The translations under genes were made by a program, and so were the position numbers. Positions 36,332 to 43,712 of a stretch of DNA of 64,000 nucleotides are shown piece by piece; position 1 is the stretch's first letter; every line of letters begins with the position of its first letter. The stretch spans positions 1,657,501 to 1,721,500 of the forward strand of contig NZ_CP072648.1 in NCBI RefSeq assembly GCF_018304825.1, read 5' to 3'. This DNA is from Chloracidobacterium validum (GTDB lineage Bacteria > Acidobacteriota > Blastocatellia > Chloracidobacteriales > Chloracidobacteriaceae). The notes beneath the pieces were generated by a model. That model ran no database searches and was not told where the DNA came from. It saw nothing but the letters and a program-made list of their open reading frames with translations.

Positions 36332-39819
<3,488 letters not shown>

Positions 39820-39970
39820 TATCGTCTCTACGTCACCTGATGTACATCCCTGAATGCGATTTAGTTTATCATTCCAGCGGCGCCGGCGCAGGACGAGTTG
39901 CCCACCGGCCCGGTGGACAGGTGGGACCCACCTCGTCATCAACTTTACTGCCTGTGGATTGAAAGTCTTT

Positions 39971-40606
39971 GTGAAGCACCTGACCGTGGCCATTACCGGC
40001 GCAAGCGGGGCCATTTACGCCCAGCGATTGCTGCACTACCTCGACGCCAGCCTGGAAGTCGCTCAAATCAACTTGGTTATCAGCGCGCTGGGCGCGACGG
40101 TCATTCGGGAAGAACTCGACTTGCCCATCACGGGCGCCAAAGCCAGCGACGTGGAAGCGCTGCTTGGGCGGCCGACAACCAAGATTACCCTGCTGCCGGT
40201 CAAGGATGTCGGCGCAACGATTGCCAGCGGCTCCTACCCCTGCGATGGCATGGCCGTCGTGCCGTGCAGCATGGGCAGCCTGGGCTACATTGCGGCCGGC
40301 ATCGCCCGCGACCTGATCCACCGGGCCGCGGACGTTATGCTCAAAGAACGGCGGCCGCTGATTCTGGTCCCCCGCGAAACGCCTTTCAACGCCATTCATC
40401 TTGAGAACATGCTGCGCGTTGAACGGGCCGGAGCGCTGATTTTGCCGGCCTGTCCCAGCTTTTATCACCGGCCGCAATCCGTACAAGCACTGGTCGATCA
40501 CCTGGTGTTTCGCATCATGGCGCACCTTGGCGTTTCCCATCCAACCGACACCACCTGGCGCGGACGACGCGCGCCGTCATCCGAGCCGGCATCAGGCCAG
40601 GTGTAA
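39971..40606 (+). CDS. ubiX: Flavin prenyltransferase (UbiX/Pad1)
   Basis: 211 aa from GTG 39971 (VKHLTVAITGASGAIYAQRL). Diagnostic motifs: GASGAIYA at the FMN site, PCSMGSLGYIAAGIARDLIH, and ADVMLKERRPLILVPRETPF with HLENMLRVERAGALILPACP and SFYHRPQS. It prenylates FMN to make the cofactor of UbiD-type decarboxylases. The C-terminus is about 15 residues longer than usual (GRRAPSSEPASGQV), and it overlaps the small minus-strand gene at 40592. No ubiD gene is nearby. Confidence 0.95.
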   Translation: MKHLTVAITGASGAIYAQRLLHYLDASLEVAQINLVISALGATVIREELDLPITGAKASDVEALLGRPTTKITLLPVKDVGATIASGSYPCDGMAVVPCSMGSLGYIAAGIARDLIHRAADVMLKERRPLILVPRETPFNAIHLENMLRVERAGALILPACPSFYHRPQSVQALVDHLVFRIMAHLGVSHPTDTTWRGRRAPSSEPASGQV

Positions 40607-41001: not shown

Positions 41002-42423
41002 ATGAAACGCGACGACTATCGGCGCGAGTTTGCGGCTTTTCAGGCGGCACGGGCGCAGGCCAGGCAGATGGCGTGGCGTGCCGCCTCCGGTTTTGAGCCG
41101 CTTCCGGCGCGACTTCAGGATCGATTCAGTGACTTGTGGTCGGCGACGGCTGTGGCCGATTTGCGCCGCGAAAGTCAAGCTGATGCCTCGCGCTCCGAAA
41201 CCGAACGGCGTGGCGGACAATCACTCCTTGATTTTGCGGAAACCTGGTTCATTCGGACGCAAACGCGGGAACTCGACGCGGAACTCCACCGGGCCCTCAC
41301 CACCCCACTCATCCCGTGGCGCGGACAACGCCAATCGGCATCCGCGCTCCGGCCGCATCTGGCCGCCGAGTCAGACCCGGCGCACCGCCGCGAACTTCAG
41401 GGCAAACTCGCGGCGCACGACGCCAGCTTGGTTGATCTTCGAGAGCAGCGCCGGGAGATGCTGGGCGCAGCCGCGCGCAGCTTGGGTTACGGTCACTTGG
41501 CGGAGCAAGTCACCGCACAGCTTCACCGGCGGACGGGCGAGGACATCTCCGCGTGGACGGACACCTGCGAGCGGTTTTTGGTCGAAACGGATACCCCCTA
41601 TCGTCGCGTGGTTGCAGCGCATGCCGCGGCCGCGCCGGCGACTGACCCTTTTGGTGACCGCCAGCCTCGGCGTGTGGCGGAAAACCTGTTACGTGGCTTT
41701 GGGATACGTCCGTGGCAGCAAACCAATGTGACGACCGCCTGGCGCTTCACCGGCCCGTCCGGCGTGTTTCGGGTACGCATTCCAGAAGACATCCGCTGGA
41801 TGGTGGCAGAAGCATCCAACTGGCAAACTTGGCGGCGCTTTCTGGGCGAGCTGGCCCGCGTGCAGCAAGCGGCCTGGACGTCGGCCAAGCTGCCGGTCGA
41901 ACTTCGTTCCCACGGCGATCCGGCGGTGGCTGAAGCTTGGCAGTGGCTTTTTGCCGATTTGCTCATTGACCGGCGCTGGGTCGCTGGCGCGCTGGATATT
42001 CAGCCGCCTCCGGTCATTCGGCATGCCCTGCTAGCTGCCCGTTGGCAGCTAGCGCGGCGGGCGGCCCTGCGATTCGTGGCCTGGCATGGGCGCGAAACCG
42101 GTGGCTGGGCGCTCGACCGTGTACGCGCTGAGTTTGCGCAGCACCTGGACACAACCCTTTCAGACTGGGAATTGCACGATGAACTTGACGCGGCACCTCA
42201 GGCCCTGGCCCAACTGCGCGGCGCGTGGCTGGCCGCCGCGCTGAACGACTGGTTGCGCACGAAATACGGTAACTGGTTCGCCAGCCGCCGCGCTGGCGAT
42301 GACTTGATTGACCTGTGGAACACTGGCTTTCGCTACACGGCCGGCGAACTCGCCGCCTTGGTCGGCGTCGGACCGCTCACACCGGACGCTTTCTTGGCTG
42401 GCTCAGACCCGGTCAGCAAGTGA
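41002..42423 (+). CDS. Family M3-like protein without HExxH, probable pseudopeptidase
   Basis: 473 aa, mostly helical, no signal peptide. The overall pattern follows oligopeptidases of the M3 type: early helices (FAETWFIRTQTRELDAEL), ARSLGYGHLAEQV, and a C-terminal AGELAALVGVGPLTPDAFLAG. The segment at about 280-297 (FLGELARVQQAAWTS) sits where relatives have LLHEAGHxxHFAWTS. Here both His are replaced (G282, R286) while the Glu remains, and the downstream VAEAWQWLFADLL still holds the third-ligand Glu (about 311). It should not bind zinc. The gene frame is intact, which argues for a non-catalytic function. Confidence 0.55.
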   Translation: MKRDDYRREFAAFQAARAQARQMAWRAASGFEPLPARLQDRFSDLWSATAVADLRRESQADASRSETERRGGQSLLDFAETWFIRTQTRELDAELHRALTTPLIPWRGQRQSASALRPHLAAESDPAHRRELQGKLAAHDASLVDLREQRREMLGAAARSLGYGHLAEQVTAQLHRRTGEDISAWTDTCERFLVETDTPYRRVVAAHAAAAPATDPFGDRQPRRVAENLLRGFGIRPWQQTNVTTAWRFTGPSGVFRVRIPEDIRWMVAEASNWQTWRRFLGELARVQQAAWTSAKLPVELRSHGDPAVAEAWQWLFADLLIDRRWVAGALDIQPPPVIRHALLAARWQLARRAALRFVAWHGRETGGWALDRVRAEFAQHLDTTLSDWELHDELDAAPQALAQLRGAWLAAALNDWLRTKYGNWFASRRAGDDLIDLWNTGFRYTAGELAALVGVGPLTPDAFLAGSDPVSK

Positions 42424-43073: not shown

Positions 43074-43712
43074 GTGATTACGAACGAAATCTTCCAAACA
43101 ATCATCAGCGTTTCCCTTGTCGTCGTCTTTGTCGTGCAGTTGGCGCTGCTCTTGGTTATCTACCGGTTGGTCACCAAAGTCATGGGCTTGATTGAGCAAG
43201 CCCGGACCAAAACTGATCCGGTGGTTGAACAAACCCGCCAACTCTTGACATCGGCCAAGCCCATTATCGAGAAAGCGCAAACCACCGCCGAAGCCATTAC
43301 CCCGATTCTGGTTCGGACGAATGAACTCCTTGGCGTGGCACGCGAAACGACCGTGCTGGTGCGCGACACCACGGCAACGCTCAAAACGGAAGCTCAGGCC
43401 TGCCTTGCGGCGGTGACGGCGACCACCAAGGAGCTTTCCCGCTTGACCACGGAAAGCGCACAGGAAGTTTCGACGCTTGTCAAGGACACTTCTGAACAAC
43501 TCCGCACCCAAGTGGACACCTACGCGCATGTCGCGTCGCGGACGGCGCTCCGCATTGATGACACGGCCTCGATCATTCAGCAAGACGTGCTGCGGCCCGT
43601 GCAAGAGATTTCAGCCATGTTGTCTGCGGCAAAGACGTTCCTATCGGTCTTGCTGACACCAGAGCGCAAGACGGTTGACCGTGCCTACCAGGACGAAGAG
43701 ATGTTCATCTGA
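43074..43712 (+). CDS. DUF948-like membrane-anchored coiled-coil protein
   Basis: 212 aa with GTG start at 43074. N-terminal membrane helix (about 10-30; ISVSLVVVFVVQLALLLVIY), then a long helical region dominated by T/E/A/L heptads (VEQTRQLLTSAKPIIEKAQT, LVRDTTATLKTEAQACLAAV, TKELSRLTTESAQEVSTLVK), like DUF948 and methyl-accepting-type coils without a signalling domain. C-terminus LLTPERKTVDRAYQDEEMFI. Probably paired with the YtxH-like protein upstream, a common arrangement. Function unknown. Confidence 0.72.
   Translation: MITNEIFQTIISVSLVVVFVVQLALLLVIYRLVTKVMGLIEQARTKTDPVVEQTRQLLTSAKPIIEKAQTTAEAITPILVRTNELLGVARETTVLVRDTTATLKTEAQACLAAVTATTKELSRLTTESAQEVSTLVKDTSEQLRTQVDTYAHVASRTALRIDDTASIIQQDVLRPVQEISAMLSAAKTFLSVLLTPERKTVDRAYQDEEMFI

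Follow-up and report, generated by a model that had tools for sequence, protein, structure and literature searches.

In this study, we analysed the gene at positions 41002-42423 of a 64,000-nucleotide stretch of Chloracidobacterium validum DNA (here called the window). The reading that we favour, at a probability of about 0.72, is that its product is a pseudopeptidase of a kind that evolved repeatedly in bacteria, with a non-catalytic role in binding or as a scaffold, and that it was encoded ancestrally in an aroB operon. On comparison and modelling, the protein appears to combine what is expected of a pseudopeptidase, namely lost catalytic residues, a kept fold and purifying selection. The first-pass annotation had described a single intact M3-like gene without zinc histidines; beyond it, the loss recurs across the phylum, and the ancestral setting would be the aroB operon. 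The features are listed in Table 1.

Table 1. Features of the M3-like gene, in window coordinates
Feature	Coordinates	Strand	Basis
Putative M3-like pseudopeptidase gene, 473 aa	41002..42423	+	open frame, orthologues, AF2 model, M2/M3/M32 fold
GELAR, residues 282-286, aligned to the HExxH zinc motif; G and R in place of the two His	41845..41859	+	alignments, hhalign vs canonical peptidases
Glu311, third zinc-ligand position; kept here, Ala in two congeners	41932..41934	+	alignment, hhalign
Residues 249-253, R-P-x-K substrate-side loop in intact relatives; unconserved here	41746..41760	+	alignment conservation
Residues 404-411, Y..RAW..E in intact relatives	42211..42234	+	alignment conservation
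C-terminal core WFASRRAGDDLIDLWNTGF, residues 425-443, conserved whether the zinc site is intact or broken	42274..42330	+	alignment conservation

The frame runs from an ATG start to a TGA stop through 473 codons with no internal stop, and the coordinates and open frame given in the first-pass annotation were exact. A wrong frame or strand was ruled out, since the reverse strand across the gene is closed by several stops and the orthologues lie in a common frame. Scans for promoters and terminators gave no signal above chance. The C. validum genome has 3.66 Mb in two contigs; a published Chloracidobacterium genome consists of two chromosomes of ~2.6 and ~1.0 Mb (PMC8245765).

The genus genomes examined share one gene order around the locus, namely gyrB, a conserved ORF, ubiX, the M3-like gene, ytxH, a membrane-protein ORF and truB, with a reductase gene after truB wherever the stretch compared reaches that far. 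Among the loci examined, this order did not extend beyond the genus, so the neighbours ubiX, ytxH and truB were given little weight in assigning a function. The ORF adjoining gyrB (38863-40014, minus strand, 383 aa) is conserved throughout the genus and has no Pfam match; the ubiX-like ORF, as listed, has its start within the 5' part of this frame. The ORF between ytxH and truB (43074-43712, plus strand, 212 aa) has an N-terminal membrane segment, is 83-90% identical over the genus and also has no Pfam match.

We then examined the fold and family membership of the protein. An AlphaFold2 model built on an alignment of 30 orthologues reached a pLDDT of 93.2 and a pTM of 0.91. Foldseek and VIA-align identified the modelled fold as the M2/M3/M32 clamshell, which is helical and two-lobed with a deep cleft, so the M3-like fold proposed in the first-pass annotation is present in the prediction. 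The nearest solved folds were the M32 carboxypeptidases 3dwc and 5giv, ACE and ACE2, with Z of ~22-23 over 415-460 residues (3dwc, Z 22.9, rmsd 4.1 over 424 residues; ACE2, Z 22.7) and a best E of 4.7e-9 (5giv). A zinc-intact relative modelled likewise gave Z 27 against ACE.

Profile comparison agreed with the model. A profile restricted to zinc-broken sequences from family f1, the gene's own family, was aligned by hhalign to canonical M2/M3/M32-type peptidases, each above at least one Pfam M2/M3/M32 cut-off, with a probability of 98.7 and an E of 3.7e-16 over 424 columns; an intact-led profile gave 4.2e-33. The window protein itself had no match in Pfam or NCBIfam over curated family thresholds and none among PDB sequences, and two family profiles (A1 and A2) found no relevant match among PDB sequences. 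Weak matches to NCBIfam TIGR02289 (M3_not_pepF) were obtained for 10 of 30 family members (best 2.2e-12), far below its cut-off of 442 bits where scores were printed. The homology of the family to M2/M3/M32 peptidases is solid, and the family is an undescribed, distant subfamily. Neither a second family copy nor another M3 (PF01432) gene was found in this genome, and a role as regulator of an active paralogue, as in M16-type pairs, was therefore dropped.

We next compared the zinc site with that of the relatives. The alignments and hhalign both place GELAR on HExxH, as had been read from the sequence alone, hhalign matching it to HEFGH, and Glu311 to the Glu that canonical peptidases conserve. 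Orthologues from other families of the class carry HEAGH, HEGGH or HESGH at this very position, not elsewhere in the chain as the first-pass annotation had allowed for. Intact relatives share HE(A/G/S)GHAQ..W and a Glu 29 residues after the first His, which is the spacing of M3 peptidases; the corresponding stretch here is GELARVQ..W plus Glu311. Both zinc His are gone throughout the genus, where GELAR is found in 7 of 7 genomes, and in the rest of family f1, whose other genera have RALAV, QTAAM or RAAAL. The distal Glu had also been reported as kept; this holds for C. validum, but the residue is Ala in 2 of 7 Chloracidobacterium species, and because of this Glu311 is not a conserved remnant.

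The change extends beyond the zinc ligands. Tyr404, Trp408, Glu411, Asp397 and the R-P-x-K loop decay alongside the zinc His; the window protein has Gln, Ala and Ala at 404, 408 and 411, and the Tyr404 column corresponds to a Tyr present in every member of the canonical set. Conservation of K249 and R252 is 0.96 and 0.91 among intact members, compared with 0.29 and 0.22 among broken members. By contrast, P261, G273, E300, D306, R352, R406, W425, A431 and W439 are conserved in both groups, W425 and W439 being invariant in both. These comparisons suggest that the window protein has lost peptidase activity.

To follow the loss across relatives, we surveyed the Acidobacteriota, with 74 family members from the class and the phylum. 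A full H-E-H-E set, scored as intact with a predicted catalytic state, was found in 25, and the site was broken in 49. On a maximum-likelihood tree of 79 sequences with some long branches (L123, L124, L064), from which the motif columns and one partial member were removed and in which six canonical outgroups were included, 7 changes of state were needed (bootstrap range 5-8), at least 4 of them forced by strongly supported branches. If the site was never regained, about 10 losses are required. The loss in family f1 is older than the genus Chloracidobacterium.

A recurrent replacement was observed at the second His column (window residue 286), where Arg or Lys stands in 32 of the 49 broken copies, and in 8 of 10 lineages of loss. 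The first His has the same mutational options, and there these residues were seen in 7 copies and 3 of 10 lineages. A plausible reason may be that the positive side chain occupies the pocket left by the zinc.

The genomic setting of the family was then investigated. The gene lies directly upstream of aroB on the same strand in 51 of 71 evaluable loci, whether the site is intact (22 of 24) or broken (29 of 47); three further loci with longer gaps raise these counts to 23 and 31. The pair often overlaps by 4 nt. Within the Acidobacteriota it is spread over at least 12 family-level groups, in any zinc-site state (L051-L123, e.g. L054, L060 and L114). The downstream gene was identified as 3-dehydroquinate synthase by the TIGR01357 equivalog, against which two examples scored 361 and 363 bits, and most of the repeated site losses in relatives took place while the gene still adjoined aroB. 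A small one-helix membrane-type protein (ORF of ~130-150 aa) recurs just 3' of aroB, whether the M3-like gene is present or not (L054, L070, L080, L092, L097, L140-L146).

This linkage raises the possibility that the protein is a specific partner or regulator of AroB, such as an assembly factor or stabiliser, for which catalysis was never the essential part. Such a role would be a special case of the favoured reading and does not compete with it. We consider it unlikely, although not strongly so, since gene order is no proof of contact and the pair is unlinked in Chloracidobacterium, in f2 g6, f53 and f56 and in others. The pair persists in the sister genera g2 and g4, but aroB of Chloracidobacterium lies ~1.63 Mb away on the chromosome, so the AroB link need not hold there. 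In several families, moreover, genomes carry aroB without the M3-like gene, and the protein is thus not universally required for AroB. A wider form of the idea is that the selected function in the aroB operon was independent of catalysis and served to assist or regulate aromatic biosynthesis, the zinc site being discarded independently up to about ten times with a tendency to Arg/Lys refill at the second His; we put this forward as a doubtful proposal.

As selection had been claimed on the strength of one open frame, which is insufficient by itself, we examined the orthologues and their substitution rates. Orthologues are present in 44 of 98 related genomes, and all broken copies examined are open, near full-length frames except those cut by contig ends. 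Pairwise NG86 dN/dS, rough where dS exceeds about 1, was 0.13-0.28 within Chloracidobacterium, 0.11-0.28 in other broken pairs and 0.11-0.14 in intact pairs. Synonymous changes dominate, and the comparative data support the claim that selection keeps the gene.

These data bear on the main rival explanation, slow decay, in which a peptidase that had ceased to be needed lost its active site first and is now losing the rest, with no new function gained. Some broken pairs do lie slightly above the intact ones in dN/dS, and in most genus members the M3-like gene has diverged more than any of the genes around it (63-66% identity versus roughly 66-92% for the neighbours). No copy was detected in 100 of the 162 genomes of the class, which indicates that the role is dispensable in many lineages, and the persistence of aroB without the gene fits decay as well. 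However, the frames stay open, dN/dS remains far under 1 even in deep broken clades, W425, W439 and R352 are invariant among members that lost the site independently, and in family f1 the loss came before the genus. Slow decay is therefore improbable. A rebuilt active site, using another metal site or a non-metal mechanism through Glu283 and Glu311, would fit the retention of Glu283 in 7 of 7 genus members and 20 of 49 broken copies and the recurrent Arg/Lys, but it is very improbable, as the translated chain holds no other HExxH, Glu283 and Glu311 are both gone in many broken relatives (Glu311 even inside the genus), and further cleft residues, Tyr404 among them, have gone as well.

Taken together, the pseudopeptidase reading can be set out as follows. 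The ancestor would have been a zinc oligopeptidase-like protein, probably catalytic, encoded directly upstream of aroB and probably translated together with it. In family f1 the zinc site may have been lost first and the substrate-side residues later, and the same loss occurred separately in several other Acidobacteriota families. The fold and the conserved C-terminal core seem to have stayed under purifying selection after the site was lost, which makes binding more likely than cutting. The present product would then be a pseudopeptidase located in the cytosol, with the M2/M3/M32 clamshell fold, and a non-catalytic role is the most likely one: it would bind a partner, peptide or protein, in or around the old cleft. 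The data thus bear out the observation made in the first-pass annotation and favour its suggestion of a non-catalytic role, although nothing points specifically to the chaperone-like variant that it named. That this partner is AroB is a weaker suggestion, drawn from gene order.

The window protein shares its overall fold with peptidase family M3 (oligoendopeptidase/thimet type; TIGR02289, PF01432), and the intact members of its family match M3 in the position and spacing of HExxH and the distal Glu, whereas the window protein lacks both zinc His and any Pfam or NCBIfam match. It is only 10-15% identical to its nearest solved folds, M32 (carboxypeptidase Taq) and M2 (ACE), and lacks their zinc ligands. 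A further parallel is ACN-1 of C. elegans, an ACE-like (M2) protein described in PMC2259306, citing Brooks et al. (2003), as missing the metallopeptidase active site and retained in an essential role. ACN-1 and the window protein have the same fold class, and both are retained despite a missing active site; unlike the window protein, ACN-1 and the other metallopeptidase-like pseudopeptidases (reviewed in PMC11266112) are eukaryotic. That review makes no mention of M32, thimet oligopeptidase or ACN-1. Our literature search turned up no paper on a pairing of aroB with M3 or on M3 pseudoenzymes in bacteria, and an M3-like protein of bacteria that combines recurrent loss with linkage to aroB seems to be undescribed in the literature searched. 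Pseudopeptidases are best known from animals. Here, a single family spread over a bacterial phylum contains both intact and broken members, has lost its site repeatedly and has a conserved partner gene, and it offers a natural experiment in the passage from enzyme to binding protein. The family also points to a companion, unsuspected until now, of AroB in the shikimate pathway.
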